This document shows, in pieces, positions 29,235 to 62,357 of a stretch of DNA of 64,000 nt. Origin of the DNA: Azospirillaceae bacterium (GTDB lineage Bacteria > Pseudomonadota > Alphaproteobacteria > Azospirillales > Azospirillaceae). A program made the translations under genes and the position numbers. The notes beneath the pieces are model-generated. The model was not told the origin of the DNA. It made no database searches and saw only the letters and a program-made list of their open reading frames with translations. Location: the NCBI GenBank assembly GCA_031291675.1, contig JARLIO010000059.1:62001-126000 (forward strand), given 5' to 3'. Position 1 is the first letter of the stretch; each line of letters starts with the position of its first letter.

Positions 29235-29316
29235 CTTGTCTCCTCTCGCCCTCTTTCGGCCCCCGGACGGTTCCGGCGCCGCTGCCGTTACCGTCCCGCC
29301 TGTGCTCCGGCCCGTG

Positions 29317-30150
29317 CTACGGGTTTGTCGGCGCCGCCGTGCTATTGCTGATCGTGTAATCGAGGTTGCGGTTGAACGGCAGCGCCTTGGTGATGTACTG
29401 CTCAACCCACTTGTCGACTTCCGCGATGGTTGACTTCGGTACAAAGACGGTATCCAGCGGCTGCAGAGCCACGGCCTGATCGGGGTCGCCGGTTTTGACA
29501 TAGGCATCGAGGTCAACCGTACGCAGGATCGGCCGGCCGTCCGGTCCCTGACGGATGATCACGATCGCACTGGGACGCGCCGTGTCCAGCACGCCGCCCG
29601 CCGCCGCGATCGCCTGAAGGGGGGTCATCTTGTTCTGCAGTGGCACGGCACCCGGCTGCTTGACCTCGCCGTCGATATAGACCACGGGGGCATAATGCCG
29701 GATGCTGAGCGACGGACGGGCATTCGCGGCGATGTGGTTGTCGACCAGGGCCTTGTCGAGCAGGGCCTCGAATTCCGGAACCGTCCGGCCCTGGGCCAGC
29801 AGCGAGCCGACCACCGGCATGGTGAAGCGGCCGTCGGGCCCGACCGGCCCCTCATAATTCAACTCCGGATTGAACGGTAGAATGACCGACAGGTCGTCAC
29901 CGGGACCGACGCGATATTCGGCCGGAATCTTGGGCAGCAGCGGGAACGCCGTCGGTTGCTGCCTTTCCGGTGGCACCGTGTCGGCGCACGCCGACAACCC
30001 GATCACGGCCAGGAGAAACAGGGGTCGGAACCGCGTCGGCGCGCCGCCACCCTGCAGAAAACGGGAGCTCTGGGATTGCACGATCTGCCTCATAAAGCGT
30101 TGCACAACGCGCCACCATCCCCGGACCGTCCGCTTCGGCACCCGGGTCAT
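29317..30150 (-). CDS. Polysaccharide export lipoprotein (Wza-like)
   Basis: This 277-residue envelope protein has a basic N-terminus, a hydrophobic segment and a lipobox (VIGLSAC) near residue 55, so the mature protein would begin with a lipidated Cys. The poly-export domain follows (EYRVGPGDDLSVILPFNPELN, then PDGRFTMPVVGSL), and a SLBB-type domain (VYIDGEVKQPGAVPL, MTPLQAIAAAGG). It should form the outer-membrane exit channel for the polymer. The long leader before the lipobox suggests the true start may lie downstream of 30150; the Met in RFMRQIV near residue 20 is a candidate. Its annotated start overlaps the WecG-type gene by four bases. Confidence 0.9.
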   Translation of the reverse strand: MTRVPKRTVRGWWRVVQRFMRQIVQSQSSRFLQGGGAPTRFRPLFLLAVIGLSACADTVPPERQQPTAFPLLPKIPAEYRVGPGDDLSVILPFNPELNYEGPVGPDGRFTMPVVGSLLAQGRTVPEFEALLDKALVDNHIAANARPSLSIRHYAPVVYIDGEVKQPGAVPLQNKMTPLQAIAAAGGVLDTARPSAIVIIRQGPDGRPILRTVDLDAYVKTGDPDQAVALQPLDTVFVPKSTIAEVDKWVEQYITKALPFNRNLDYTISNSTAAPTNP

Positions 30151-31004
30151 GGCAGGCTCCGCTGGTCGTCGGCCGCCACCGTCGCGGCACCGGCCGGCGA
30201 CGGCCGTGGCGCCAGGTCCCCCGGGTCAGACGAGGCCAGTATGTCGCGGCCCACCGCAAGCAGAAAGCCGGCAGCCGACCGCACATAACGCAAACCGAGC
30301 CGATGGGGTTCGAGGCAGAGACGCCAGAACCATTCGAGATTCAGGGCGACCAGCAGCGCGGGTGGCGTCGGGTTCAGCCCCAGGGCAATCTTCACGCCCT
30401 GGCCGATGCACAGCGCCCAGCACGGCGGCAGGATGCTCCTTTGCTCATGCACGAAGGTCTCGCTTCGCGGGGCCCCCACCCCCATGATCAGAATCGTCGT
30501 CCGATGCTGCCGGATGGTCCGGGCGAGATCCTGGCACAGGGTGTGGTCGCGTTCGAAGCCGAACGGCGGAATTGCGGTTGCGACCCGATCGCCGAGACCG
30601 CGTTGCCCGGCCCAATCGCGGACCGCCTGGGCCGTCCGCTCATGATCGACGACAAAGAACAACCGCACAGGTGCGGGGAACGCCGCGCGCCGCAACAGGA
30701 TCGCGACCGCGTCGCGCCCGGTCACCCGCCCTGGCAAAACGCATCGGCGCAACCGCGCATAGTAATGAACCGGAAAGCCATCGCAGGTGGTAATCGCGGC
30801 ACTGGCGCAGGCGGCACGCAAGGCCGCATTCGAACGCAGCAGGGCGATGTGTTGAATATTGGCGGTCACCACGAGGCCGACACCATCGGCTGCGGATCGT
30901 TGTGTCCCGACGACCCTGTCGACGATTGCGCCAACGGTGAGCGACGTGACGCGCAACCCGAAAATCCGCTGTTGGCTCGCCTCGTCTGAAAAATGCACGG
31001 CCAT
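30147..31004 (-). CDS. WecG/TagA/CpsF-family glycosyltransferase (GT26)
   Basis: This 285-residue cytoplasmic or membrane-associated transferase has the GT26 layout: LVVTANIQHIALLRSNAALRAA near the N-terminus, the active-site region TTCDGFPVHYYARL, GRVTGRD, the FGFERDH segment and IMGVGAPRSETFVHEQ. The C-terminal arm ALNLEWFWRLCLEPHRLG is the conserved membrane-association region. Relatives add ManNAc-type or other sugars to a lipid-linked first sugar. It therefore probably adds the second sugar after the priming transferase of this cluster. It overlaps the Wza-like gene by four bases. Confidence 0.9.
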   Translation of the reverse strand: MAVHFSDEASQQRIFGLRVTSLTVGAIVDRVVGTQRSAADGVGLVVTANIQHIALLRSNAALRAACASAAITTCDGFPVHYYARLRRCVLPGRVTGRDAVAILLRRAAFPAPVRLFFVVDHERTAQAVRDWAGQRGLGDRVATAIPPFGFERDHTLCQDLARTIRQHRTTILIMGVGAPRSETFVHEQRSILPPCWALCIGQGVKIALGLNPTPPALLVALNLEWFWRLCLEPHRLGLRYVRSAAGFLLAVGRDILASSDPGDLAPRPSPAGAATVAADDQRSLP

Positions 31005-31109
31005 GCTGGCAAATCCTGGCAGTCAGAAAAAATCGCGGGCAAGCGCCGGCCTCGCGGCCGCGGCGCGGTGATCGGAACGGCGGCCCGACAGGCGCGCGCC
31101 GTCCCGGCT

Positions 31110-31583
31110 TCAGGACGGCGCGGCATTCACGGCGCACATTGCCTTCAGCGACGTGCAGATGCTGGGGACGCCATTGCGGCCGCAGATGCTGTCGGCCTTG
31201 ATGTCAGACACGTTGAGCCGGCCATAATGGCGACCCTCGATATCGACGATGATCGGGGCCTCGGCCGCGAACGGATCGCAGGCCGAATACCGGCCGTGCG
31301 CCGCCCGATAGGCGGCGAAATGGCTGAGGTTGGAATAACCGTTCCCCCAGCCAAGCGGCGACTGGTTGTTCCACACCGAATTGCCATCGTAGGAGTCGCA
31401 ATTCAGGCAACCCAGATACTCGCGATCGAGCGGTCCGGCGTAGATCAGCAGCCGGGGCTGCGCGACCGTGCTCTGGGCGTGCGTCCGGCCCGCCGTCACA
31501 ACCCCGGCAAGACATAGCGCGACCGCCAGGGGTCGGGCGATCCGGTGCAGGGCCACGGCCACAGCAGGGCGGTGATGACGCAT
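31110..31583 (-). CDS. Small secreted protein of unknown function
   Basis: This 157-residue protein has a signal peptide (PLAVALCLAGVVTAG, cleavage near THA). The mature part contains LLIYAGPLDREYLGCLNCDSYDGNSVWN and a tract rich in Asn, Tyr and Gly, ending with paired Cys (SICGRNG, SICTSLKAMC). The pattern recalls a widespread family of exported proteins with repeated LGCLNC-type and YG-S motifs, whose function I do not know. The ATG at 31583 overlaps the stop of the upstream gene (TGATG), which fixes the start. Its place inside the exopolysaccharide operon suggests a periplasmic role. Confidence 0.78.
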   Translation of the reverse strand: MRHHRPAVAVALHRIARPLAVALCLAGVVTAGRTHAQSTVAQPRLLIYAGPLDREYLGCLNCDSYDGNSVWNNQSPLGWGNGYSNLSHFAAYRAAHGRYSACDPFAAEAPIIVDIEGRHYGRLNVSDIKADSICGRNGVPSICTSLKAMCAVNAAPS

Positions 31584-32569
31584 CAGCGCTGCCACGCCCG
31601 GTGCAACAGCCCCAGACCGCGGCGCACCACGGCGGAGTAGAACTCCGCCCATTTCAGCCGGGTGCTCTCATAGCGATGATAGGGCTGTCGCGTGATCGGG
31701 AAGAAAGGCTCCAGCTTGGCGATCACGCGCTCCGGGGGTATCCGGGTATTGCTCTGCACCACGGCAAACAGGCCGTCGCCGTCGGGGGCAAAATGATCGG
31801 CCGCCGACCAGTCGTCGAGATTCCGCCCGCCGCGGCCGGCGTACCAGACGCTCTGCGCCGCATGGATCGAATGCGGCCCGGCCGCCGGCGGGGCATGGAA
31901 CGCCTCCAACAGGCCCTCGCGTTCGGCGTTGAGCCAATAGAGCGTGTATTCGGTCCAGTCGATCATGCTGTGGCGCAGAAGCACGCGAATCCAGTCTTCC
32001 TGGTAAAGTTCACGCAATCTTTGCTGCAGATGACCGCACAGGGTGCTGGAGAGGATCGCCGGGGTCCACCAGATGCCGTCCCGGTCGAGATGCGGGTCCT
32101 GGCGCAGCAGCCCGGCCGACGCCTTCCAGAAACGCGGTTCGCGGGTCCTCGGCTGGCGATAAGTGTTCGCCCGGCCGTCGACGATCAGCGAGTCGACCGA
32201 GAAATGACGGGTCGCCAGCACGTCGGGATCGAAAATCATGAAATATTCGGTGTCGATCAGCGCCGGCGTGAACAGCTTGATGATCTGCTGACGGTGCCAG
32301 GGCCGGATCTGGTGGCGCCGATTGAATTCCGCGAACGCCGGCAAATGGACGGATTCATCGACGATCTCGATGGGAAAATCCCGCCATGCCGCCCCGTAAC
32401 GCTGTGCGTCGGCGAGTTCGTCATGCGGGACCACGATCACGAATTTCTCGAAGATGTCCGGTTTCGCGAAATGCCGCAATGAAGAAAACAGTATATCGCA
32501 CCGCGCGATATTGTCGACATAGTGCCGGCCGCGCGTCTTCAAGGGAAGAATGGCGCTGATCTTTGTCAT
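31583..32569 (-). CDS. DUF6492-like, glycosyltransferase-fold protein
   Basis: This 328-residue soluble protein begins MTKISAILPLKTRGRHYVDN, like a GT-A nucleotide-sugar domain, and has the acidic metal-type motif MIFDPDVLATRHF near residue 118. Further blocks include RRHQIRPWHRQQIIKLF and IDWTEYTLYWLNAE, which fit the DUF6492 group found in capsule and exopolysaccharide clusters. It probably transfers a sugar to the growing repeat unit or modifies it, but no donor can be named. It sits between the Wzc-like protein and a small secreted protein, overlapping the latter. Confidence 0.75.
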   Translation of the reverse strand: MTKISAILPLKTRGRHYVDNIARCDILFSSLRHFAKPDIFEKFVIVVPHDELADAQRYGAAWRDFPIEIVDESVHLPAFAEFNRRHQIRPWHRQQIIKLFTPALIDTEYFMIFDPDVLATRHFSVDSLIVDGRANTYRQPRTREPRFWKASAGLLRQDPHLDRDGIWWTPAILSSTLCGHLQQRLRELYQEDWIRVLLRHSMIDWTEYTLYWLNAEREGLLEAFHAPPAAGPHSIHAAQSVWYAGRGGRNLDDWSAADHFAPDGDGLFAVVQSNTRIPPERVIAKLEPFFPITRQPYHRYESTRLKWAEFYSAVVRRGLGLLHRAWQR

Positions 32570-32622
32570 TCCAGGGACTCACGGGCTTGTGCCAAAGGTC
32601 TTCACCGGCTTGTGGGGCTGTT

Positions 32623-34839
32623 TCACAGAAAGCGGTAGATGAATGACGGGATGTAGCGCCGCCGGTTGGTCATGGCGACGCCAACGATATTGCCACCGGC
32701 ATCCGTGACCTGGTTCTTCATCGACAGTGCGACCGGCTTGCGGGTCGCCTCGGCGCGAATCGCCAGCACCGTGGCATCGGCGCGCAATGCCGCCTCCACC
32801 CCGACGAAGGACCGGCTCGCCGGGGGCACCGCGATGATCACGTAGTCGTGGGCCGCACGCAGCCGCTCGAACAGTTCGGCACCTTGCGGGCCCACCGGCA
32901 GGGTCATCCCGGGATGCAGCCGGCCGATCACGATGTGCCGCCGCTCCACCGCATGGAAGGTGAACACCGACTGCGCCGCGGCGCTGAATCCCGGCCGTGC
33001 CGCCACCCCGACCCAGGACGGCGCCGGGCCGTCGTCGCCACCGGGCCAATGCAACAGCCCATCGGCGTCGGGCTCGCCGTAACGGCCAGGTTCCGCTGTC
33101 AGGTCCAGCACCAGGAGCGGGCACAGCGACCGGCGCTCCAGTTCCTCGGTCAGGCCCTGGATCACGGTCTGGATGCCGTCGTCGTCACGGAACGCCAGCA
33201 ACAGCACAACCTTGCTGGCGTTGCCGGCGCTGTTATCGATCGCCGAGATCATGCGGCCATATTCGATGTGCGACCGCCGCGCGCGGGGGGATGGCATCGC
33301 TGCCGCCACGGCCGGGAGCCGATACCGGTCCACCGCTGCGGGTCCGGTCCACCGCGACAACCGGCCGATCAGCGGCAACGGCTTTTCGAATCGCAGGGGG
33401 GCGCTGAGCACCGGCAGTCCCAGCGACCGTTCGATCTCCTCGGGGCTGAGGAACGTTTCGCGCAGCGTGGACATCACCAGGATCGAAACACCGGCGATCA
33501 GGACCGCGGCCACGGCGCTGGCCGCGATGAACAGCAGGGGCGGATTGCTGCGGTGGGTTGGTGGTATTGGCGTCTGAATGATGCGGACATTGGTGCTGGT
33601 GGCGGTGTCGACCTCGTTCTGCTCGATCCGCGCCCGCTCGAGCTGACGCGAGAAATCCTTGAAGGAATCGGCCAGCAAATCGCGATCGATCTCGGTGCGG
33701 CGAAGCTGATTGGCGACGGCAATCAGGGTCTGCAGGCGATCGTCGGAGTCCTTGTATTGATGCTCCAGCGACTGCTTGCGGGCAACCTCGCCGGCGACGT
33801 CGGAGGTCAGGCGCATAATCCGGTCACGGATCGTGTCATAATAGGTGTTATGTCCGGTGCGCACGGTGCTGGTGAGGTGAGGTTTCTGCCCGGCGATCGC
33901 CTTCCTGACATCCGCGATCTGTTGATCGATTTGCGCGATGAACGGTGCGCCTTCGAGATAGCGCGACGCCAGGTCGGCCCGGCGCGCCTCAAGCTGAAGC
34001 AGGGTCAACTGCATCGTGTCGGCGGCATGCGCGGCTTCGGTATTGTCCGAAAACAGCTCGATCGTCGGTTGGACGCCCTTGGCGTCCTTGAGCAGGGACT
34101 GGAGGGTGTCGCGATCCTGACTCAGCGAATTGTCGTTTTCGAGCGTGCGCTGGAGCAGCAACCCGTTCAGGGCGACCGCACCCGCAATCTGGGCGTCGAT
34201 ATTGACGACACCATGGGCACGCTGAAACGCGATCAGCTGGGCGTTTGCATTGTCGAGCTGCGTCTTGGCCTTGTCGCGTTGCGCCACCAGAAAGTCGACA
34301 CGGCCGCTGGTGAAAACCCCGGCGCGCTGACGAAAATATCGCGCGATCAGCGTCTCGAGGATATGGGCGGCGCGGACCGGATCGGAATCGGTGAAGCTGA
34401 GCGCGATGACATTGGCGGCCTCGAACTTCTCGATATGAAACCGGTCCTCGAATCGACGCAGCCGCTGGTCGAATTCCGCGGCTGTCCCGCCGCTGCCAAA
34501 TTCATCGGTCACGACCAGGTGGTGCAGTTCCGGGCTGGCCAGAATCTGCGCCTCGACATTGACCACTTCGCCGGCCTCGATCGCCGGCAACGACCTCGTC
34601 GCGGAGCGATCCGACTGCATGTCATAGTAGCCGGCAAACAGCGTCAGCAATCGCGCTTCGGCACGATAGGTTGGCGGCATCAGAACCGCGACCACGCTGC
34701 CCAGCGCGATGACCACCAAGACAATGGCGGCAGCCTTCCATCGATAATAGAAAGCAATATTAAGAAAATCTCTGGTGGAAACCTGCGGTACCGCCAGCGG
34801 GCGACGTGCCCTGTTGATGTCGTTGTTCCGCACCGTCAT
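32623..34839 (-). CDS. Wzc-like polysaccharide co-polymerase with a degenerate kinase domain
   Basis: This 738-residue inner-membrane protein has the polysaccharide co-polymerase layout. A first membrane helix (AAAIVLVVIALGSVVAVLM) lies near residues 36-54, then a large periplasmic coiled-coil region, then a second helix (LLFIAASAVAAVLIAGVSILV) near 440-460. The C-terminal ~220 residues correspond in position to a BY-kinase domain, with VVLLLAFRDDDGIQTV where a Walker A is expected. The glycine-lysine-threonine loop is absent and there is no terminal tyrosine cluster. The protein probably sets chain length without autophosphorylating, unless a separate kinase is encoded elsewhere. Confidence 0.88.
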   Translation of the reverse strand: MTVRNNDINRARRPLAVPQVSTRDFLNIAFYYRWKAAAIVLVVIALGSVVAVLMPPTYRAEARLLTLFAGYYDMQSDRSATRSLPAIEAGEVVNVEAQILASPELHHLVVTDEFGSGGTAAEFDQRLRRFEDRFHIEKFEAANVIALSFTDSDPVRAAHILETLIARYFRQRAGVFTSGRVDFLVAQRDKAKTQLDNANAQLIAFQRAHGVVNIDAQIAGAVALNGLLLQRTLENDNSLSQDRDTLQSLLKDAKGVQPTIELFSDNTEAAHAADTMQLTLLQLEARRADLASRYLEGAPFIAQIDQQIADVRKAIAGQKPHLTSTVRTGHNTYYDTIRDRIMRLTSDVAGEVARKQSLEHQYKDSDDRLQTLIAVANQLRRTEIDRDLLADSFKDFSRQLERARIEQNEVDTATSTNVRIIQTPIPPTHRSNPPLLFIAASAVAAVLIAGVSILVMSTLRETFLSPEEIERSLGLPVLSAPLRFEKPLPLIGRLSRWTGPAAVDRYRLPAVAAAMPSPRARRSHIEYGRMISAIDNSAGNASKVVLLLAFRDDDGIQTVIQGLTEELERRSLCPLLVLDLTAEPGRYGEPDADGLLHWPGGDDGPAPSWVGVAARPGFSAAAQSVFTFHAVERRHIVIGRLHPGMTLPVGPQGAELFERLRAAHDYVIIAVPPASRSFVGVEAALRADATVLAIRAEATRKPVALSMKNQVTDAGGNIVGVAMTNRRRYIPSFIYRFL

Positions 34840-34897
34840 GATCGATACAAACCAAATGGATTTTCAAGAATTTCGAGGCGGGGTGGATTACAGATGG

Positions 34898-36364
34898 TCA
34901 ATAGGCATGCCTACGGTCGAACAGAACGATCCAGACACTCCTGATCAGGATCTTGAAGTCCAGCCATAGCGACCAGTTTTCGATATAGTTAAGATCATAC
35001 TCGACCCGGCGCTGTGCCGCAACCGTGTCGGCCACCTCACCCCGCAATCCATTGACCTGGGCCAATCCGGTCAATCCCGGCCGGACGCGGTGGCGCGCGA
35101 AATATTCCTCGACCGTCTCGTCATACGGTCTGCCGCCGACCCGCATCGCGACGGCGTGCGCCCGCGGCCCGACCAGGGACATGTCACCCCGCAGGACATT
35201 GAACAGCTGAGGCAACTCATCGATGCTGAAGGCCCGCAACACGGCGCCGACGCGGGTGACGCGCGGATCCTGCCGCACGGTGCGCTGGGCTCCGGACGCG
35301 TCGCCCAGCGCCACATGCATCGTCCGGAATTTCAGCACGGTAAAAACCCGGTTGTTGAAGCCGTACCGGTCCTGCCGGAACAGCACCGGCCCCGGGCTGT
35401 CGAGCTGGACCAGCGCCGCGAACAGAAGGAGCAGGGGCGCGAACACGACGAGCGCGACGCCCGAAAGGATCTTGTCCTCCAGGAATTTGGCCACGATGTC
35501 CCAGCCCTTCAGCGGCCGCTCGAAGATCTCGAGCACCGGGATGTCACCGAGATAGGACACCGCCCGAACCGGCCGACCCGGTGCGATCATCTCGCAAGTC
35601 AGGCGGAGATCAACGGGCAACACCATCAGCGCCTTCATCACGTCGCTCAGCCGGGGCGAGGTGGTGATCGGCAGTGTCACGATGATTTCATCGGGAAGTT
35701 CGGTGCGCGCAAACCGCACCAGGTCCCGGATCATCCCCAGCACCTCGATGCCATGGAGTTCAGGCGGGACCCGGTCACGTCGGTCGTCGAATATGCCCAG
35801 GACCTGGTAGTCGTGCGGGCGACTGTTCAAAAAGCCGATCAGACGCGCACTGGTATCGTTTGCGCCGACAACGGCAATGCGGCGCCGCAGCGCGCCGGTC
35901 CGCCACCAATGCCAATAGATGCCCGTCAGAACGAGTCGGACCGTATAAAGAGCGCTCAGGGCGATGGTACCCGCGATCGTCACAAATTGGATCGAGGAAC
36001 CATCATCGTCATCACCAACAAAAATCGCGGCCAGCAACACAATTTCCGCAACCAGGCACAGTACGGTCATCCGGGTGAACTGAAACCAGATGTTTGCCGC
36101 ATTTCCCGGCGAATAACCGTTCGCGCATTGGAACAGGAGTACATATCCCACCGCAGGAACCGCGATCAGAGCGAAATAACCAACGTGCGGGAGCAAGATG
36201 CTGCCATGGAGCCTCTCCAAGAGATGATACGCCGCCGTCGCGCCGGCAAGAATTGACAACCCGTCAAAAAGCCGAAACATTCCACAAAAAATGACAACCG
36301 TCGTCGACGGTATTTTCTTGTGATCACTGTGTTTCAGAGCATTCACTGCACGAAGCGTATGCAC
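34898..36364 (-). CDS. Priming sugar-phosphate transferase (WcaJ/undecaprenyl-phosphate glucose-1-phosphate transferase family)
   Basis: This 488-residue membrane enzyme loads the first sugar phosphate onto undecaprenyl phosphate. It has four N-terminal membrane helices, a Rossmann-like middle domain (RRIAVVGANDTSARLIGFL) and the conserved C-terminal catalytic domain: a fifth hydrophobic segment (LSGVALVVFAPLLLLFAALV), SPGPVLFRQDRYGFN, FRTMH, then LRAFSIDELPQLFNVLRGDMSLVGPRAHA and RHRVRPGLTGLAQVNG. The start is a GTG at 36364 with a weak ribosome site; an ATG at 36280 is an alternative. It is the first gene of the exopolysaccharide operon. Confidence 0.93.
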   Translation of the reverse strand: MHTLRAVNALKHSDHKKIPSTTVVIFCGMFRLFDGLSILAGATAAYHLLERLHGSILLPHVGYFALIAVPAVGYVLLFQCANGYSPGNAANIWFQFTRMTVLCLVAEIVLLAAIFVGDDDDGSSIQFVTIAGTIALSALYTVRLVLTGIYWHWWRTGALRRRIAVVGANDTSARLIGFLNSRPHDYQVLGIFDDRRDRVPPELHGIEVLGMIRDLVRFARTELPDEIIVTLPITTSPRLSDVMKALMVLPVDLRLTCEMIAPGRPVRAVSYLGDIPVLEIFERPLKGWDIVAKFLEDKILSGVALVVFAPLLLLFAALVQLDSPGPVLFRQDRYGFNNRVFTVLKFRTMHVALGDASGAQRTVRQDPRVTRVGAVLRAFSIDELPQLFNVLRGDMSLVGPRAHAVAMRVGGRPYDETVEEYFARHRVRPGLTGLAQVNGLRGEVADTVAAQRRVEYDLNYIENWSLWLDFKILIRSVWIVLFDRRHAY

Positions 36365-52580: not shown

Positions 52581-53951
52581 TCACGGTTCGTGGAACGCGG
52601 TATCAACCGACCGGGTCAAAGGGCGGAACAGATAGCCCGCCAATGTCCGGGTCCCGGCAACAATCTCGGCATCAACCACCATGCCGGGCAGCAGGGGGCC
52701 CGGCGGCGCGGACTGCTGTCCCGGCACCTCGGGGGCCGTCGCATCGAACGCGATCAAACCCTTGTAGTAAGGCTGCCCCTGGCCATCGATCAGCGTCGTC
52801 GGCGAAACCTGAACCAGATGACCGGCCAGGGTGGCGTAGCGCGCGGAATCGGAACTCCTCACCTTGATCCGGACCGGCTGATCGGGCCAGAGCCGCGTGA
52901 CATCGCGGGGCGCGATCCGGACGTCGAGCTGGAGGCGGGCATCCGCCGGCACGACGGACATCAGCGTCTCCCCCGGCGACACCACCGCGCCGGGGCTATG
53001 AATCCGCAGATCCTGGACGATGCCATCGACCGGGGACCGAACATCAAGACCGGCGATGCGCGCCTGAAGCCGGGGAATGGTCGCCTTGATCGCCTCCATC
53101 TCGGTCGCCACCGTTCCCGTCTCGGTCAACGCCGCTTCGCGCTGCGCCATGTCCTGGTTGACGCGCTGGCGTTGCGTCTCGATGATCGACTGCGACGCCA
53201 CCAGAACCAGGTCGCGCAGGCGATTGACCTCGCCCTGCGCCGTCACCAGGGCGCTCTGGGCATCAAGCTGAATCTCCTGAGCATTGACCGCGTCCGGCGC
53301 CACGCGCTGGCGGAGCGCCAGACGCCGGCTGGCGATATCCAGCTGGCGTTGCGACAGGGTCAACGCATCGCGCAGCTGGTTGGCCTCCTTGCGATGCTGA
53401 TCGATCTGGCTGTCGATCACGGCCAGGGCCGCCCGATGACTGTCACGCTGCCCCGCCCAGATCCGGCGCTGGTCCGCCGCCAGGTCCGGCCAGTCGGCTT
53501 GCAGCACCACGAAATTGGGTTCCCGACCCTCCGCCAGCGCCCGCAGACGCTCGATCCGCATCTGCAACGCCGCCGATTGCGCCTGCGCCTGATGCAGTTC
53601 CTCCCGGGCCTGGACCGGGTCGATTCGCACCAGCAACTGGCCCTCCTTGACGCGATCGCCGTCCTGAACCGCGATTTCACTGACCACGCCGGCCTCGAGA
53701 TGCTGAATCGTCTTGATCTGACCGACGGGAACCACCTGTCCCGGTGCCGACACCAGCTCTTCAATGGGTGTGATCGCGGACCACCAGATGAAACCGACCA
53801 ACACGATGCCCGCGGTGAACACCAGACTCCGCACCAGATCGGAAATCGGCCGTTCTTCGAACCCCGCCGGCTCGACCAACACCCTCTTCCGGCGTAACCC
53901 AATCTGGACCGCGCCGGCGCCGCCGACGCGCGCGGATGTCAAGCGGATCAT
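52581..53951 (-). CDS. HlyD/LapC-family membrane fusion protein of a type I-like exporter
   Basis: This 456-residue periplasmic adaptor has one N-terminal membrane helix (LVFTAGIVLVGFIWW) at about residues 43-57, a lipoyl half (VSAPGQVVPVGQIKTIQHLEAG), a long coiled-coil hairpin and a second lipoyl half with beta-barrel (VRSPVDGIVQDLRIHSPGAVV). It ends with the AEIVAGTRTLAGYLFRPL motif typical of HlyD/LapC-type adaptors. It connects the tandem ABC exporter, whose gene overlaps it by four bases, to an outer-membrane channel. No TolC-like gene is in the window. Confidence 0.93.
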   Translation of the reverse strand: MIRLTSARVGGAGAVQIGLRRKRVLVEPAGFEERPISDLVRSLVFTAGIVLVGFIWWSAITPIEELVSAPGQVVPVGQIKTIQHLEAGVVSEIAVQDGDRVKEGQLLVRIDPVQAREELHQAQAQSAALQMRIERLRALAEGREPNFVVLQADWPDLAADQRRIWAGQRDSHRAALAVIDSQIDQHRKEANQLRDALTLSQRQLDIASRRLALRQRVAPDAVNAQEIQLDAQSALVTAQGEVNRLRDLVLVASQSIIETQRQRVNQDMAQREAALTETGTVATEMEAIKATIPRLQARIAGLDVRSPVDGIVQDLRIHSPGAVVSPGETLMSVVPADARLQLDVRIAPRDVTRLWPDQPVRIKVRSSDSARYATLAGHLVQVSPTTLIDGQGQPYYKGLIAFDATAPEVPGQQSAPPGPLLPGMVVDAEIVAGTRTLAGYLFRPLTRSVDTAFHEP

Positions 53952-56900
53952 GATGCCTGGCTCCCTGGGATCAAGTTGCTGAGCTCGCCATAGCGCCCGG
54001 TTTGCCGGATATAGCCATCCTCCAGATAGATGACGTCATCGGCGAGCCGCAAATGGTCGGGATTACTGGACACGATCAGAATCGTTGCCCGCTGGCGCAG
54101 CAGACCGACCGCCCGCTGGAAGGCCTGATCGGTCGCGGCGTCGAGGCCGAAGCCGGGATCGTCGAACAGGATCAGCGACGCCGAACCGAGATAGAGCCGC
54201 GCCAGCGACAGCCGTTCGCAAAAGCCGCGCGGCAGGCCTCCGCCCCAGCCGTCGCCAATCACCGTGGCGAAATCATCGGGCAGGGCAAAAATATCGGTCG
54301 TCAATCCGGCGAGATCGGTCGCCCGCCGCAGATCCTCGTCACCCGCCGTCGGATTGGCGAGGCGGAGATTGTCGGCGACCGTGCCGTTGAAAATACTGTG
54401 ACGTTGCTGGGCAAAGCCGACCACCGTGCGCAGATCCCAGGGATCGATCCGGCTGATATCGGTTCCATCGATCCGAATGGTTCCGGCCTGGGGCTGGTAC
54501 AGGCCGGCGATCAGCTTCAGCAAGGTCGATTTGCCACCGCCGGTCGGTCCGGTGATGCCGATCACCTGGCCGGCCGAGACCTGGAAACTGATCCCCAGCA
54601 AAGCGGGATCGGCATCGTCGTCATAGCGGAAGGACACGCGCGCAAAACTGAGATCGCCGCGAACTGGCGGCGGCACATGGCGTGCGCGGGTGATGTCACG
54701 TTCGACGCCCAACGCCATCAGCGCATCCGTGCGCCGGACACTGTCTCGCGCCCGCAGCAACGTTGCTACCGACGACAAGCCGAGCTGCCACGACTGGATC
54801 AGGCGATCGGTCACCAGCAACGCGGCGATGATCACCCCGGCGGCAACCGGTCCGGCTGTGGGCTCCAGCACCTGCAACGAACTCGCCGCCAGCGCCGTCA
54901 CCATCATCAGGGCGCCGCAGACCCGTGCCCCGCCGGCGATCCAACGGGAACAGGACTGCGCCGCGAGATCCGCGTCCATCGCCCGGGCCGACAGAGCGCG
55001 GAAGCGCTCGAACCACAGGCGCTCCAGACCGACCTGCTTGATCGCCCGCATCTTGCTGAGGCATTCGGTCAGAAACTCGCTTCGGCGTTCGCCCGCACGC
55101 GACGATCGCGCAATCTCCGCCCCCAACGCGCCCGACCTCGACCAGCCGAGCACAGCAAAAATCCCACCGATCGCGATCAGGGCCACGGGCAGCCAGATCT
55201 TGATGAAACCCAAAATGATCAAATAAACGACGTTCAACGGCAGTTCGTAAAACAGCAGTCCTGTCGCGCCAACGAACAGTTCGCGCAGGAATTCGAAATC
55301 TTCGAGCCGGGCCAACGTGCTGCCCAGGCTGCCGCGCTCGACGACCGATACCGGCAGGCCCAGGATCCGCCGACAGATCCCCGTCGCCAGGATGAATTCG
55401 AGCCGCGCGCCAATATGGGCGATGATCCGGCCACGCCGAAGCCGCAGCGCGCCCTCCACAACCAGGGCCAGAGCGGCCCCGACCGGCAACCACACGGTCA
55501 GAGCGACATCGCCCGCCGGGATCGCCCGGTCGAAAACCGCAATCAGCAACCCGGGGACGGCCAACGCCAGCACCGCGATGGCCATCGATACCACCAGGTT
55601 GACGGTAACCAGGCGGCGAAAACGCGTCATCACCCGCCAAAACCCATCAGGGTCCGCCGCCGCCGCGGTCCAGGCCGGTTCCTGCTCATCAAACCAGTAG
55701 ACCGTGCCGCGGGTCGGGCTGCGCGGCACGACGGTGTTCTCCACAGCACCACCGTCGAACACCACAACACCATCTTCGGTTTCGTGCAGCAGGATTTGCG
55801 CCGCACCATCATCAGGGATGAACAGGCAGGGCATTCCCATCGCCGTCACGTGATCGAGACGGGCCCGCGCCGACCGGGGCACATAATCGAGATGGCTCAT
55901 CACCTGGAGCAGCCCGGTCAGGTCGAGGGCGTCCGAACGCTGTGGCAAGGCCTCCGCCAGTTGCCGCGGACTGCCACGCCAGTCCAGGGCGGTCAACAGC
56001 GCCACGAGACAGGTCGAGAGATCGGTCGGGATGCGAAACCGCGACACCAGCAACCGCGACAGCGGCTCGGGCTCCGCCAGCACCACCGCGCCCGGATCGC
56101 GCCGCGCCGGCGGCCGCAGCACCGCCGCCGCAGAGACCACCGTGGCCAAACCGGCTGCGGGAGCGCGGTCGACGCGGCTCAGCCGGCCCTCGGCCAGGGT
56201 GTAGACCTGATCGGCCAGGGACAGGAACGGCACGCGGTCGGTCACCAGAACAAGGGTGCAGCGGCCCTTGAGCGCGGTCAGGAGCCGCCGCAACGCGGTC
56301 TCACCCGCCGCGTCGAGGCCGATACTCGCCTCGTCGAACAAAATGACCTTCGGCTGACGCGCCAACGCCCGGACAATCGCGATCCGCTGACGAAAGCCCG
56401 CCGGCAGGGTTTCCGCAATACTGTCCCCGACCCAGGTGTCGTAGCCGCGTGGCAGCAGACCGACAATCCGATCCAGCCCGAGATCCCGGGCCAATTCAAG
56501 CGCCGGGCCGACCCGATCGGGATCATACAGCGTGATGTTGTCCAGGATCGTTCCCTCGAACAGGACGCCCTCCTGTGGCAGAAACGCGATCTGATCGGAA
56601 AGCCGGGACGGCACATAGTCGGCCAAATCATATCCGTCGACCAGCACCCGTCCCCGGGTCGGTTTGACGAGGCCCGCCATCATCGCCAGCAACGAGGATT
56701 TCCCCTGGCCGCTGTCGCCGACAATCGCGACGCAACCGCCGGGCGGTACGTCGATCGACAAGCCGGAGAACAGCGCCATCGGCGACGGCAGATAGCGCAG
56801 CAGCACATTGTCAAGACGCACCGCACCGGCGATCGGCGGCAGTGCCGGCTGCTTGTCGTCGTCAACATGATCCGTCATGGCGGCCGCAGCGCCACCCCCG

Positions 56901-57913
56901 ACTTCCAGCAGACGCATCAGCCGGTCGCGGGCGGCGCGCGCCCCCTGGACCCGCGGCCAGGCCGCCAGACCACCGCCAAGCATTGCCAGGGTGCGACCAC
57001 ACAGGACCACGACGGCCGCCAGGCCGCCCAACGTCAACTGGTTGTCAACGACCATCCGCGCACCGAACCCGGCGATCAGGACCATGCCCAGCGAGGCGCA
57101 CACACTCGCCGCCGCGATCGTCCGCTGTGACCAGGCGCCATGCCGGTAGCGCAGCGCCACATTGGCCTCTTGCAGCGCTTCGTAGCGCCGTAACAACAAC
57201 GCTTCGGCGGTCAGCGTCTTGAGCGCTCGCAGCCCCTGTAGCAGTTGGGACAGGAAGCCAAGGCGGCGTTCCTCGGCAGCAGCGGCTTCGACAGCCCCCT
57301 GCCGGACCGCCCCGTGGGTCGCCGCGCCGAGAACCACCAGCAAGCCGCCCAGAACCAGCGGCACCACGACCAACCCACCGGCAATCGCCCCGATCACGCC
57401 CAGAAAGATCACGACAAACGGAAGATCGATCAGCGCCAGCAAAGTCTGGCCGGCATAAGGGCTGCCGAAACACTGACGCAGGATTGCCGCCGCTTTGAAC
57501 CCCTCGAGGCGCGCACTGACGTCGACCTGGTCAAAATCGACGATATTCGCCGCCATGACATGGCGCAGCGCCTTGCAACTGATCCGGTGGTCGAAGTGGG
57601 CCCCGACCCAGGCAACAATATATTCGCGGGCACCAGCGGCCAGCGCTTCCAAAATCAGCGCCACGCCAACCCCAAGGATCAAGGCCCAAAGCGTCGAGAT
57701 CGAATGATGAGGAACCACGCGATCGTAAATCTGTAACAATCCAAGAGGCAGAGCAAGCGCCAATGCATTGACAATAATCGATGCAACCGTCAGCTCAGGC
57801 AGCACGCGAAAAAATTCCTGCCAGCCGACGATCGGCAAACGGCGCCGTTGAGACGAACCGGCCGGATCCGACGTTTCAGAGGGTTCAGCCGGCACCGATG
57901 CTGTCACCGTCAT
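53948..57913 (-). CDS. Tandem (two-in-one) ABC exporter with atypical nucleotide sites and a C39-like domain
   Basis: This 1321-residue protein fuses two exporter half-units. Half 1 has membrane helices, Walker A GDSGQGKSS near 399, a signature position reading LPAGFRQR near 500 and Walker B LFDEASIGLDA near 520. A C39-like segment without an evident catalytic Cys lies at about 600-760. Half 2 has helices, Walker A GPTGGGKST near 1119, LPRGFCER near 1224 and LFDDPGFGLDA near 1246. The LSGGQ signature is replaced in both, the Walker B Glu is Asp in half 2, and the H-loop His is Asp (VTDR) and Asn (SSNP). Related to LapB/NHLM-type exporters; the cargo is unknown. Confidence 0.88.
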   Translation of the reverse strand: MTVTASVPAEPSETSDPAGSSQRRRLPIVGWQEFFRVLPELTVASIIVNALALALPLGLLQIYDRVVPHHSISTLWALILGVGVALILEALAAGAREYIVAWVGAHFDHRISCKALRHVMAANIVDFDQVDVSARLEGFKAAAILRQCFGSPYAGQTLLALIDLPFVVIFLGVIGAIAGGLVVVPLVLGGLLVVLGAATHGAVRQGAVEAAAAEERRLGFLSQLLQGLRALKTLTAEALLLRRYEALQEANVALRYRHGAWSQRTIAAASVCASLGMVLIAGFGARMVVDNQLTLGGLAAVVVLCGRTLAMLGGGLAAWPRVQGARAARDRLMRLLEVGGGAAAAMTDHVDDDKQPALPPIAGAVRLDNVLLRYLPSPMALFSGLSIDVPPGGCVAIVGDSGQGKSSLLAMMAGLVKPTRGRVLVDGYDLADYVPSRLSDQIAFLPQEGVLFEGTILDNITLYDPDRVGPALELARDLGLDRIVGLLPRGYDTWVGDSIAETLPAGFRQRIAIVRALARQPKVILFDEASIGLDAAGETALRRLLTALKGRCTLVLVTDRVPFLSLADQVYTLAEGRLSRVDRAPAAGLATVVSAAAVLRPPARRDPGAVVLAEPEPLSRLLVSRFRIPTDLSTCLVALLTALDWRGSPRQLAEALPQRSDALDLTGLLQVMSHLDYVPRSARARLDHVTAMGMPCLFIPDDGAAQILLHETEDGVVVFDGGAVENTVVPRSPTRGTVYWFDEQEPAWTAAAADPDGFWRVMTRFRRLVTVNLVVSMAIAVLALAVPGLLIAVFDRAIPAGDVALTVWLPVGAALALVVEGALRLRRGRIIAHIGARLEFILATGICRRILGLPVSVVERGSLGSTLARLEDFEFLRELFVGATGLLFYELPLNVVYLIILGFIKIWLPVALIAIGGIFAVLGWSRSGALGAEIARSSRAGERRSEFLTECLSKMRAIKQVGLERLWFERFRALSARAMDADLAAQSCSRWIAGGARVCGALMMVTALAASSLQVLEPTAGPVAAGVIIAALLVTDRLIQSWQLGLSSVATLLRARDSVRRTDALMALGVERDITRARHVPPPVRGDLSFARVSFRYDDDADPALLGISFQVSAGQVIGITGPTGGGKSTLLKLIAGLYQPQAGTIRIDGTDISRIDPWDLRTVVGFAQQRHSIFNGTVADNLRLANPTAGDEDLRRATDLAGLTTDIFALPDDFATVIGDGWGGGLPRGFCERLSLARLYLGSASLILFDDPGFGLDAATDQAFQRAVGLLRQRATILIVSSNPDHLRLADDVIYLEDGYIRQTGRYGELSNLIPGSQAS

Positions 57914-58595: not shown

Positions 58596-59708
58596 ATGCC
58601 GACCGACGATCCCGCCGCCCCGCCGCCGCCGTCAAACCGCCGTGCCGTTATCGCCACGATCTTCAATCAGAAGGGTGGCGTCGGCAAGACCACGACCAGC
58701 GTCAACCTGGCGACCTGCCTGGCCGCGGGCGGCGTGCGCGTCCTGGTGATCGACTTCGACCCCCAGGGCAGCGCCACCGCCAATCTCGGCCTGATCGGTC
58801 GCCCGGTCCCGGGCAGCTATGAACTGCTGATGACGGGCACACTCTCGGCCACGCTGATGCAAACCACGGCATTTCCCGGCGTCATGCTCTGTCCCGCTGG
58901 CGACGCGCTCGCCGGGGCCGACCTGGAACTGGCGATCTGCACCGACGCCCAGAATCTGCTGCGCCAGGCGCTGCACAATGCCCGGGTGCCGATTGACGTC
59001 ATCATCATCGATTGCCCGCCGACCCTCAGCATGCTGGCGTTGAACGCCCTGGTCGCCAGTGATGCCGTCGTGATGCCAGTGACACCCGACCCGATGGCCC
59101 GCGACGTTCTGCATCGCGCCTGGCGTCATATCCAGCGGATCCGGAGCACGCTCAATCCAAACCTCGCGATCGCGGGCGTCGTCCTCACCATGGTCCACGA
59201 CAACCCGGTGCATCGGGAATTCGAACAGACCATCCGGGGGGAGCTGGGCAACCGGGTCTTGCCGGTCGCCATCCCCTTCGATACCGCAATCCTGGGCTCG
59301 TCGCGGCATGACCTGCCGGTGTGCGTCTTCGCCCCGCAGAGCGCCGCCGCACAGGCCTATCTGGCGCTGGCGGCGGTAATCCAGGACCGGATGTCGGCGC
59401 TGTCCCGCCCGGTCGCGCAACCCGCGGCGTTCTGCGACGACACCGACGGTGCCGAACCCGCTTGCGTCATGACACCCGTGCCCGGCTTCAGTCATGATAC
59501 CGCGGCTGCCGCGTTGCGGTTCTGGTCCAGCAAAGCCGGGCACACGGAACCGCCGGCCCCGGTGACAAAAGCCGCCACGGTCGCGGCCCCGACCGCGGGC
59601 CGCGCGCCGGCCTCCGGGTGGCACAGCCCCGATCGGATCACCGGCTTCGCCGCCGGTTGTGTCCTCGGCATCGTGCTGACCCTGCTGGCCCGCGCCATCG
59701 GGCTTTAG
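58596..59708 (+). CDS. ParA/MinD-family ATPase with a C-terminal membrane helix
   Basis: This 370-residue protein has a deviant Walker A (QKGGVGKTT, residues 25-33), a switch I region (DFDPQGSATANLG) and Walker B-like VIIIDCPPTLSMLALNAL, all typical of ParA/Soj ATPases. After about residue 265 comes a variable linker, and residues 348-370 form a hydrophobic segment (ITGFAAGCVLGIVLTLLARA) that would anchor it in the membrane, unusual for ParA. No parB gene or parS-like site is next to it. It is convergent with a long coiled-coil protein, which may be its partner. Likely role: positioning a protein assembly or envelope machine. Confidence 0.88.
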   Translation: MPTDDPAAPPPPSNRRAVIATIFNQKGGVGKTTTSVNLATCLAAGGVRVLVIDFDPQGSATANLGLIGRPVPGSYELLMTGTLSATLMQTTAFPGVMLCPAGDALAGADLELAICTDAQNLLRQALHNARVPIDVIIIDCPPTLSMLALNALVASDAVVMPVTPDPMARDVLHRAWRHIQRIRSTLNPNLAIAGVVLTMVHDNPVHREFEQTIRGELGNRVLPVAIPFDTAILGSSRHDLPVCVFAPQSAAAQAYLALAAVIQDRMSALSRPVAQPAAFCDDTDGAEPACVMTPVPGFSHDTAAAALRFWSSKAGHTEPPAPVTKAATVAAPTAGRAPASGWHSPDRITGFAAGCVLGIVLTLLARAIGL

Positions 59709-59717
59709 CCCGGCCCC

Positions 59718-59747
59718 GGATGTGCCCCCTCGTGGTCGGGGGCATCC
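59718..59747. terminator. Stem-loop between convergent genes
   Basis: GGATG(TG)CCCCC and GGGGGCATCC pair with a two-base bulge, between the ParA-like gene and the coiled-coil gene. It could end both transcripts; there is no T tract. Confidence 0.4.
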
Positions 59748-59755
59748 CCAGCCGA

Positions 59756-61798
59756 TCAGGGACGCAACCGGCCGGTCAGCGTGAAGAAGTTCTGTGACAA
59801 TGCCGAAAGCCGCGTGTCGGTGCCGCCCGGCACCGGGCTGGCGGGATCCGGCTGACGAGCCGTCGACGGCTTTTCCCCGACCTCGGCGCCCGGGGCGACC
59901 GGAGCGACCGGCACCGGTGCGGGTTCCGGCTGCGGCGCGACAAACACCGGCGGGACCTCGACGAACACGGGTTCGGCGACCACCGGCGGGGCCACCTCTG
60001 CCTCGGCAACCGGCGGGGCGGCCGCCACCTTAACGACGGGGGCCTCAACGACGGGCGCCTCAACGACCGGCGCTTCAACGACCGGCGCTTCAACGAAAGG
60101 CGGCTCAGCGGTCTGGACGGCCGGCGCTGCCGCGATCCGCGTCACCGACTGCTGGCTCAGCTCCTGGACCTGACGGCGCAGATCTTCGATCGCCGCAGCG
60201 AACTGGGCCTCTCGCGCCTTCGCCTGATCGCGCTCGGCCTCGGCACCGGCCAGACGGCTGGTGAGGGCCGCCACCCGCTCGTTGGCCTCGGCCAGCGCCC
60301 GCTCCGACTCGGCGGCATTGCCATCATGGTCCGAGCCCGGTCCGGTCGACAGCGCGGCGACCCGCCGCTTGTGAAAATCGAGATCGGTGCGCAACCGCGA
60401 AATCTCCGCCATCAGGCGGCGCTGATCGAGTTCGCCGGCCGCCTTCTGGCTGCGCAGCCGCGCCTCGTTGACGTTATCGCTGTCGCGCAACCGGCGCTCC
60501 AGATCCTCGTTCCGCGCCAGGGCCGTGGCCAGTGCGCTTTCGGCCTGGGCCACCGCCTTGGCGGCATCGGCGCGGACGGCATCGGTCATCACCTTGGCCG
60601 CGGCCTTCTCCTCCTCGAGCAGACGGGCATAGGCCGCCCGCTCCTCGGACAAAAGCACCGCCGATTCGGCGCGCTCGCGCTCGACCTGCTGGCGCAAATC
60701 CTCGACTTCGGCGCTGTGGAAACTGACCAGCCGCTGGGCCTGTTCCAGCTCGATCGTCAGGTTGGTGATGTCCTCGGTCAGCCGCGTGACCTCGCCGTGA
60801 TGACGCTTGCGGTCCCCCTGAAGCTGATTGTCGATCTCGACGAAGGCCTGTCGAACCTGTTCACGGCCCTGGTCCAGCTGGCTTTCCAGCTCGGCCTGGC
60901 GTCCCCGCGATTCGTCCAGCGCGAGTTGGGCATCGGCCAGTCGCGCCAGGGCATTGCGGCGCTCAACCGACAACACCTCCTCGGACTGGGTCCGCGTCGC
61001 CTCCAGTCGGCTTTGGGTTTCCGCGAGGCGCTCGCGCAGCTGGACCGCCTCGCCTTGGAACTGGGCGACCTGGTTTTGCAGCAACTGGAGCTGAATGCGG
61101 TACACCGTGTCGCATTTGGCCAGTTCGCGGGCCGCCTGGTCGCGCTGCGAGCGCACTACCGCGGCCTCCTGCTGCGTCAACAGCAACTGGCCTTCCAGAT
61201 GGGCGACCTGGGTCTGAACCTCGCCCAGGCTGACAGTCGGTTGGAGGGAGAGGCTCGTCGCCACAGCCGAGCGCGACGGTTGCAGCGAATCATTTTCCGG
61301 GTTTGACGTCACGCGTTCTATTCCCCTTGAGAGAGTGTTGTCACCGGACACGGCATCGCCGGCATCGTCCCCCGCCTCAACCTCCGCGACGGGAGCAGCC
61401 CCGGCCGTGTCGGCGAGCGGCGACGCTGTCCGCGGCTCGTCGCTATCCCCGGAGACAGTAGCCCAGGACAATGTCAACGCCGCCTGGCGCTGATCCGGCG
61501 CCGTGGCGACCTGCCAGATCAGGCTGACACCGTGCGCCGCAAAACCGTCCCGCGCATCCTGCAGGATACAGCGTTCAAAGTCGGACCAGGTCTCATAGAC
61601 ACCCGACGGGACGTCCAAAGCCGCCCGAAACTGATCAAAGGGCAGCGTCCAGGTTCCGTCGTCTGCCCCTTTATGCCGGGACTCGATAAGGCGTGCCATC
61701 GCCAACGCCCATTTTCCGTCTGGCGACAAGACGTCACTGCCCGCGTTGAGCCGATCGACCAACGAAGGGCTCGCGGTATTCGAGGGACTGGGATCCAT
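59756..61798 (-). CDS. Long coiled-coil protein with a winged-helix-like N-terminal domain
   Basis: This 680-residue protein has three parts. The N-terminal ~120 residues (DGKWALAMARLIESRHKGAD, FDQFRAALDVPSGVYETWSD, FERCILQDARDGF) resemble the winged-helix layout of plasmid replication initiators, a weak match. Residues ~195-555 are a long coiled coil. The C-terminal part is Pro/Val/Glu-rich with a VEAPV repeat. The ATG at 61798 follows a GAGGCAGG site and is preferred over 61810. It has no membrane segment. Lying convergent with a ParA-like ATPase, it may be a DNA- or polymer-binding scaffold; the function is unknown. Confidence 0.75.
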   Translation of the reverse strand: MDPSPSNTASPSLVDRLNAGSDVLSPDGKWALAMARLIESRHKGADDGTWTLPFDQFRAALDVPSGVYETWSDFERCILQDARDGFAAHGVSLIWQVATAPDQRQAALTLSWATVSGDSDEPRTASPLADTAGAAPVAEVEAGDDAGDAVSGDNTLSRGIERVTSNPENDSLQPSRSAVATSLSLQPTVSLGEVQTQVAHLEGQLLLTQQEAAVVRSQRDQAARELAKCDTVYRIQLQLLQNQVAQFQGEAVQLRERLAETQSRLEATRTQSEEVLSVERRNALARLADAQLALDESRGRQAELESQLDQGREQVRQAFVEIDNQLQGDRKRHHGEVTRLTEDITNLTIELEQAQRLVSFHSAEVEDLRQQVERERAESAVLLSEERAAYARLLEEEKAAAKVMTDAVRADAAKAVAQAESALATALARNEDLERRLRDSDNVNEARLRSQKAAGELDQRRLMAEISRLRTDLDFHKRRVAALSTGPGSDHDGNAAESERALAEANERVAALTSRLAGAEAERDQAKAREAQFAAAIEDLRRQVQELSQQSVTRIAAAPAVQTAEPPFVEAPVVEAPVVEAPVVEAPVVKVAAAPPVAEAEVAPPVVAEPVFVEVPPVFVAPQPEPAPVPVAPVAPGAEVGEKPSTARQPDPASPVPGGTDTRLSALSQNFFTLTGRLRP
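60032..60106. repeat. Five-unit 15-bp tandem repeat encoding VEAPV
   Basis: Five consecutive 15-base units (core AACGACCGGCGCTTC on the plus strand) lie within the coiled-coil gene and encode a five-residue Val-Glu-Ala-Pro-Val motif. The units keep frame. Confidence 0.9.
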
Positions 61799-62357
61799 AG
61801 CCTGCCTCATCTGGATAGCCGCTGAAACCGGCGGCGAATGCCGCAGAGACGGTATCTCTTATCGCAAATCTCGTTATCGCAAATCTCGAGCCGCTTTTAT
61901 CAGAACAACGTGTGGGCGTCGAGGCGCTGCCGTCGACCGGAAGCAAAGACATCAACCCCATGACCTTTTGACCACGCCGCGTCAATAGCCGATCAGATAC
62001 GCGCAATCGGATCGGAACGCTTGCGTCTGCGTCACAGACCATCAGCACCGGAACCGTCGACACGCGATCCATTACCACCGAACCGCGCTATCCTCTGACG
62101 GGCGCGCGGCAAAATGACGCGAAACTGCGCTTCGCCGCGACCCCGGCATCGCCTTGCCGCTTGTGGCGTGCGCGACACCGGGGCAACCGATCAAGCCAAC
62201 CCAACGCTGCCGGCGATATTGACGCCACTGGCGGAACGGGGCGTAGATAGTCCGCGGCGCGCCATCGCGATCGACACAGACCGGCCGATTCAGGCTCTGC
62301 GACGACGCGACGAACCGGCCCATCGGGGGCCGGACAGTGCGCAACGGAGAAACAGTC
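61799..62357. other. Divergent intergenic region upstream of the GlcG-like gene
   Basis: The region holds a perfect tandem duplication of 15 bases, TTATCGCAAATCTCG at 61859-61873 and 61874-61888, about 60 bases upstream of the coiled-coil gene start. This could be a regulatory site. No gene is supported. Confidence 0.45.

Follow-up and report, generated by a model that had tools for sequence, protein, structure and literature searches.

Described relatives and how the locus compares

ParA-type ATPases usually fall into two groups: those that use the nucleoid as their matrix, and those that, like MinD, use the membrane through a peripheral helix. Here, we describe two neighbouring genes in a 64,000-nucleotide stretch of an Azospirillaceae bacterium genome (GenBank GCA_031291675.1, contig JARLIO010000059.1, positions 62,001 to 126,000; hereafter the window), one encoding a ParA-type ATPase and the other a long coiled-coil protein with the anatomy of the plasmid protein KfrA. 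For ParA, PMC7229837 gives ten DNA-binding residues in the Caulobacter protein, reports that R195 and R224 are conserved in other ParA-like ATPases, and has the equivalents of R221, V223, R224, and K241 contacting DNA in HpParA. The same paper describes the DNA-contact region of MinD as mostly negative, with one arginine, and implicates residues homologous to the DNA-binding arginines in DNA binding by PpfA. According to PMC9178275, MinD is targeted to the membrane by a short ATP-gated amphipathic helix, membrane association is known for SopA of the F plasmid (with a possible amphipathic helix there), and orphan ParAs such as PpfA have no parB and lie outside a partition operon. PMC7783346 and PMC7821693 present KfrA as an autoregulating protein in which a globular head binds DNA and the tail is a coiled coil, and the operator of RA3 KfrA as five 9-bp direct repeats; in the two-hybrid assays of PMC7783346, RA3 KfrA interacts with KorB and, weakly, with the ParA protein IncC (136 vs 90 units).

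Altogether, we read the locus as two neighbours that have plasmid-maintenance relatives and probably work separately: a tail-anchored ParA without a ParB, and a KfrA-like rod. By sequence, the ATPase shares the Walker A, A', and B motifs and the core of ParA/Soj proteins (Thermus Soj 2bek and the chromosomal ParA of the same genome), but it adds a C-terminal hydrophobic helix, has no adjacent parB, and has lost contacts of the R195, R221, R224, and K241 type. Set against ParABS systems, it therefore lacks both the adjacent parB and the basic residues for non-specific DNA binding. MinD is likewise a ParA-superfamily ATPase at the membrane, where the window ATPase would also sit; however, the MinD helix is amphipathic and ATP-gated, whereas the window ATPase carries an uncharged hydrophobic stretch. 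PpfA is also without parB, but unlike the window ATPase, it has homologues of the DNA-binding arginines.

The coiled-coil protein has in common with the KfrA proteins of RA3, R751, and RK2 a DNA-binding-type head, a long coiled coil, direct repeats upstream of the gene (a candidate here), and a ParA nearby. It differs from them in its Rep-type WH2 head, its Pro-rich tail, its location on a contig of core genes, and the lack of an adjacent ParB. With the Rep3 initiators RepE of F and pi of R6K, it shares the WH2 fold, but it has no detected WH1, and its head is joined to a coiled coil.

A family of tailed ParAs without ParB

The ATPase and its parts are as follows.

58596-59708, forward strand: ParB-less ParA-type ATPase of 370 aa, predicted to be tail-anchored (Pfam AAA_31, ParA/Soj relatives, tree grouping)
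58653-59387, forward strand: ATPase core, residues 20-264, with deviant Walker A KGGVGKTT, Walker A' DFDPQGS, and Walker B DCPP; basic DNA-contact positions replaced
59628-59696, forward strand: predicted C-terminal membrane helix, residues 345-367 (hydropathy, model confidence, alignment, GxxxGxxxG motif)

A first-pass annotation, made from the letters of the window alone, had described this protein as an ATPase with a full ParA core, a C-terminal membrane helix, and no parB neighbour, and all three points hold, the membrane helix as a prediction. Pfam AAA_31 matches at 146 bits against a cut-off of 27, and the Walker motifs are intact. The closest solved relatives by sequence are ParA/Soj proteins (Thermus Soj 2bek, E 3e-35), the chromosomal ParA of the same genome is 37% identical, and PHROGs places the ATPase in a ParA-like family (E 1.5e-53). 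A scan of six neighbouring proteins found no ParB family. A canonical parA of the genome lies on another contig (C53), with an open reading frame (ORF) carrying the ParB motif GERRWRA nearby; this motif was also matched at two of the tailed-ParA loci compared below, L041 and L105, in other ORFs.

Residues 348-365 of the ATPase carry no charge, and the most hydrophobic 19 residues (352-370, which include Arg 366) score 2.09 on the Kyte-Doolittle scale. A single-sequence AlphaFold model of the whole ATPase is too poor for use (mean predicted local distance difference test score [pLDDT] 38), and single-sequence AlphaFold prediction gives a helix at 345-367, with pLDDT 86-87 in the last two ten-residue blocks. 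The ATPase is thus predicted to sit in the membrane. The helix contains a GxxxGxxxG motif (G350, G354, G358), which recurs in 29 of 29 distinct tails examined and may hint at helix packing. Two tests speak against MinD: TIGR01968 scores 51.6 bits, far under its equivalog cut-off of 212.9, and an amphipathic C-terminal helix of the MinD type does not fit the uncharged, hydrophobic stretch. A defence system was rejected as well; the PADLOC matches of the ATPase are to two PDC-M28B models, at their P-loop (best E 8e-8), and the coiled-coil protein has none.

Tailed ParAs were searched in sets of 82 genomes from the family (with a profile of the C-terminal half, A1), 385 from the class, and 398 from the phylum. 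Some ParA matches in 81 of the 82 family genomes. The profile recovered long ParAs at E < 1e-50 from 36 of 45 Azospirillum (g3) genomes and from the window's own genome, plus a weaker match from genome G001. The terminal hydrophobic helix was read directly in 34 of the 36 Azospirillum proteins, and the remaining two match the profile through to its end without stops. At E 1e-8, 53 of the 385 class genomes match, and this search adds tailed ParAs in G116 (41% identical to the window ATPase over the C-terminal half) and G179 (locus L107, cut at a contig end). Tailed ParAs outside Azospirillum and the window's own genome thus come from three genomes, G001, G116, and G179. In the class matches that were read, from loci fetched for 30 of the 53, the membrane tail is absent bar the window gene, G116, and G179. 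The phylum search matched 269 of 398 genomes, and among the matches listed, all but the window gene end before the tail or run through stop codons. Because few candidates were scored per genome (about nine in the class, about eight in the phylum) and the reading covered the class loci fetched and the phylum matches listed, this absence elsewhere carries little weight. Scans of a contig collection with the ATPase, and with the head of the coiled-coil protein, found no relatives. Several of the tailed ParAs lie on secondary replicons.

The tailed proteins also group together when their tails are removed. In a tree of proteins cut at residue 275 (nine tailed representatives including the window ATPase, 14 chromosomal-type ParAs, and four other ParAs, with G179 left out), one branch separates the nine tailed proteins from the 18 others with support of 100/99 and in 100% of 200 bootstraps. 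The split remains at 99/99 without outgroups; with tails kept, the grouping receives only 92/41. The ATPase is therefore a member of a small, conserved alphaproteobacterial family of tailed, ParB-less ParAs.

The family has largely lost the residues by which ParA contacts DNA. Contact positions were scored on a ParA alignment from fetched loci, with 38 tailed and 70 untailed rows. Since R221 and R224, but not R195, were part of the pattern used to choose the canonical ParA subgroup, the fair comparison is between the tailed rows and all 70 untailed rows, together with R195. In Caulobacter numbering, the R195 position is arginine in 1/38 tailed vs 67/70 untailed rows and the R221 position in 1/38 vs 68/70; arginine or lysine occupies the R224 position in 0/38 vs 65/70 and the K241 position in 1/38 vs 45/70. 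The window ATPase has D, F, A, and Q at these four positions, in that order. This loss makes positioning of DNA by the ATPase less likely.

Our best reading is that the ATPase is a ParA that exchanged the nucleoid for the membrane. With its core in the cytoplasm, it would dimerise as ATP sandwiches along the inner membrane face, a step in which the GxxxG-rich helix might help. Like MinD, the ATPase would then pattern a cargo linked to the membrane, which would take the place of the nucleoid as its matrix; a permanent anchor would stand in for the ATP-gated amphipathic helix of MinD. Given such an anchor, gradients would be set up through lateral diffusion together with local hydrolysis. The genes for the activator and the cargo of the ATPase would lie elsewhere.

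Several observations weigh against this reading. The tailed group stands on long branches, so the tail-less grouping, although well supported, falls short of final. A single genus supplies 34 of the 38 tailed rows, leaving about five independent lineages. G116 retains the R221-type arginine (one of the four positions), and the truncated G179 retains an arginine and a lysine at two of the four; by eye, the G179 tail does not have GxxxGxxxG. Shuffling each tail yields the motif by chance in 2-50% of cases, as these helices are glycine rich. In the window ATPase, Arg 366 falls in the last turn of the helix, which makes membrane insertion less clear-cut than for other tails.

In the literature searched on membrane-anchored and orphan ParAs (titles and abstract openings, with few subscription papers covered), no ParA with a C-terminal transmembrane anchor was found. 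A ParA core without DNA contacts and with a permanent anchor would allow the matrix requirements of patterning to be tested, and the same family would also test the need for ATP-gated release from the matrix.

A KfrA-like protein with an initiator-type head

The coiled-coil protein and the repeat upstream of its gene are as follows.

59756-61810, reverse strand: KfrA-like protein of 684 aa with winged-helix head, coiled coil, and Pro-rich tail (ORF, composition, codon-position G+C)
61448-61741, reverse strand: predicted winged-helix head, residues 24-121 (AlphaFold, Foldseek, VIA, Pfam Rep3_C below cut-off)
60143-61225, reverse strand: long coiled coil, residues 196-556, with one break near 490-497 (hydrophobic period, proline count, weak SMC matches)
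59759-60142, reverse strand: Pro/Val/Ala-rich tail with repeated VVEAP and terminal FFTLTGRLRP (composition, tandem repeat, sequence)
61859-61888, no strand: two perfect tandem copies of TTATCGCAAATCTCG, a candidate operator some 49-61 bp before the start of the coiled-coil gene

The gene starts at 61810 or 61798, which are equally likely, and its product runs from the head through a low-complexity linker and the coiled coil to the Pro/Val-rich tail. The first-pass annotation had proposed a weakly initiator-like winged-helix head, a long coiled coil, and a Pro-rich tail, and each part is borne out. The clearest evidence for the head comes from predicted structure. A single-sequence AlphaFold model of the head has pLDDT 78-86 in blocks 51-120 and a helix-strand-helix-helix-strand-strand topology. 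The top 46 Foldseek matches, identified by titles, some of which carry no protein name, are RepE, pi, and Rep structures with probabilities of 0.97-1.00, and the probability drops to 0.12 at rank 47; the best E is 2.2e-3, and none reaches 0.001. VIA aligns the head to RepE 156-246 with Z 10.4 (2.4 A over 90 residues) and to pi with Z 10.1; a further RepE row scores 6.8, and unrelated rows score at most 5.9. Thus, the predicted fold makes the head a winged helix like the WH2 of the Rep3-family initiators RepE and pi, and runs counter to a head lacking such a fold, which the first-pass annotation had named as a refuting result.

On sequence alone, the case for the head is weak. In Pfam, the head alone matches only Rep3_C at E up to 10 (E 0.011, 16.3 bits, under the 21.1 cut-off), and the whole protein matches no family at E up to 1. 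A search of PDB sequences with the head returned no initiator, only a prolyl hydroxylase at E 0.05. When the head was scored against 307 ORFs of initiator loci, the best nine scores all belonged to initiator-locus ORFs. The highest, 25.9 bits, is to an ORF of G065 (locus L040) that was itself found with the head, and the next, independently chosen, scores 18.7; 200 shuffled heads reach at most 11.1 bits (shuffles of 125 residues, query of 135). Among 72,556 plasmid records searched with tblastn, the whole protein has no match. The head alone matches 120 records at E up to 10, and of the 20 listed, 15 carry a replication-initiation-protein annotation, but with a best E of 0.6 these matches are not significant. 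No Rep3_N, the WH1 domain, was found in the whole protein (E up to 1) or the head (E up to 10); because of this, and because the head is joined to a coiled coil, we do not consider the protein an initiator. A KfrA proper was also rejected, as KfrA_N was not found and Rep3_C was the only family listed for the head. The same applies to a phage protein: PHROGs gave five families, the best at E 0.014 and four of them of unknown function.

In the coiled coil, residues 196-556 have a hydrophobic period of 3.58 and a single proline, and SMC models match weakly (best E 1e-4, far under their cut-offs). The tail (residues 557-684) is 21% proline, and its repeated VVEAP is encoded by a 15-bp tandem repeat within the gene (60028-60107).

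The duplication of TTATCGCAAATCTCG upstream of the gene is one of three exact tandem duplications (unit 12-40) in the window, and such a duplication did not arise in any of 2000 controls drawn from a first-order Markov model of the intergenic stretch. The genome assembly has no further exact copy of the unit. The repeat could be the operator of the coiled-coil gene.

We picture the protein as a KfrA-like rod with a Rep-type WH2 head, a coiled coil, and a flexible tail. It would form multimers through the coil and show specific DNA binding, with the tandem 15-bp repeat as the first site; binding at a repeat before its own gene would make the rod autoregulatory. The protein suggests that a plasmid-initiator WH2 head was reused on such a rod, in which case different DNA-binding heads could each give rise to KfrA-type anatomy. 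Several points weigh against this picture. The head has a net charge of -8, and its presumed recognition helix has two basic and five acidic residues, compared to two and three in one real initiator ORF, so DNA binding may be lost. Degenerate copies of the 15-bp repeat in the window are no more frequent than chance, and the tandem itself may stem from replication slippage.

Two sets of ORFs elsewhere are of note. In G062, locus L181 (G062:C323, 6412-9648, forward strand) holds an ORF of 1078 aa whose head is Rep-WH2-like and which, by eye, has a coiled coil and membrane segments. Its head matches the window head at BLASTP E 0.005 in a single comparison, and its contig also has ORFs that we read as relaxase-like and single-strand-binding-protein-like; it is possibly a plasmid relative of the coiled-coil protein. 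Separately, a clear Rep3_C match marks ORFs of some 470 aa in genomes without any Rep3_N match (L169-L177 and others; for example, G032, G028, and G026), and some of these ORFs share a contig with a tailed ParA, tens of kb apart.

Relationship of the two genes and their surroundings

The ATPase and coiled-coil genes are convergent, with ends 47 bp apart. Codon-position G+C fits coding for both frames (third-position G+C 0.80 and second-position G+C 0.49 for the coiled-coil gene). The contig also bears cysS, a citramalate synthase gene, and a TrmJ-like methyltransferase gene (the TrmJ match just under cut-off), and on this basis, the contig is very likely part of the main chromosome. Upstream of the ATPase gene lies an exporter pair.

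53948-57913, reverse strand: fused type I exporter of 1321 aa, adjoining the ATPase gene
52581-53951, reverse strand: HlyD, next to the exporter

The first-pass annotation had proposed that the ATPase and the coiled-coil protein form one positioning system, for DNA or for an envelope machine such as the adjacent exporter. We consider one local device rather unlikely. In it, the WH2 head of the coiled-coil protein would hold on to DNA or a scaffold while the protein touches the membrane-anchored ParA, acting as a DNA-to-membrane tether or positioner. In its favour, the genes adjoin, a plasmid precedent exists in the contacts of RA3 KfrA with KorB and, weakly, IncC (PMC7783346), and a candidate repeat operator precedes the coiled-coil gene. 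However, convergent genes do not make an operon, the ATPase has lost DNA-contact residues, and the two genes do not co-occur in the genomes tested, an outcome that the first-pass annotation had named as refuting the pairing. The head has no match in any of the 36 Azospirillum genomes with a tailed ParA. Among the 82 family genomes, it matches the window's own genome and the one Rep3-type initiator ORF of G065, and among the 385 class genomes, the matches are again that own genome plus a single hit at E 0.0087 that contains stops; a class search with two heads matched 10 of 385 genomes, the best outside its own at E 1.3e-4. The family set has no second genome of the window's genus, and with a head that evolves fast, these searches may overlook distant copies.

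Gene neighbourhoods argue in the same direction. When eight other tailed-ParA neighbourhoods were compared with 16 kb of the window (E 1e-8), the ParA, with its antisense shadow, was alone in recurring, so in these neighbourhoods the coiled-coil protein and the exporter are not conserved companions. Other pairs among the nine loci share more ORFs: L041 and L113 (Azospirillum) are syntenic, and L105 and L106 each have a few ORFs in common with other loci.

The more specific possibility of a chromosomal tether, in which the WH2-headed rod marks the tandem-repeat site and passes it to a membrane-riding ParA, is distinctly unlikely in our view. If true, it would mirror the plasmid KfrA-ParA contact in a membrane-based form and would put the old idea of DNA positioning from the membrane to the test.

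We regard as very unlikely that the locus is a relic of an integrated plasmid, with a ParA and an initiator fragment from the plasmid backbone now decaying. Both parts have plasmid-type relatives, the head-plus-coil ORF of G062 lies near a relaxase-like ORF, and several tailed ParAs are on secondary replicons. A decaying relic is at odds with two open frames of host-like codon use, with cysS and citramalate synthase on the contig, with the absence of any plasmid family from the six neighbouring proteins scanned, and with retention of the tailed ParA in 36 of 45 Azospirillum genomes.

A role for the ATPase in positioning or regulating the neighbouring type I exporter seems highly improbable: ParA-type proteins do position envelope machines, and a fused exporter with HlyD is next door, but the exporter is divergent from the ATPase gene, with 682 bp between, and no exporter ORF recurs in the eight other tailed-ParA neighbourhoods.

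Type I exporters of this kind are usually homodimers of half-size proteins. The exporter of the window has two complete ABC halves per chain, with residues 34-578 matching an LssB-type and residues 635-1311 an HlyB-type model, both below cut-off. Farther away, 24510-36364 may be an exopolysaccharide cluster; it encodes a protein resembling chain-length determinants (32623-34839) and a glycosyltransferase resembling EpsA (30147-31004), each scoring well under the model cut-offs.

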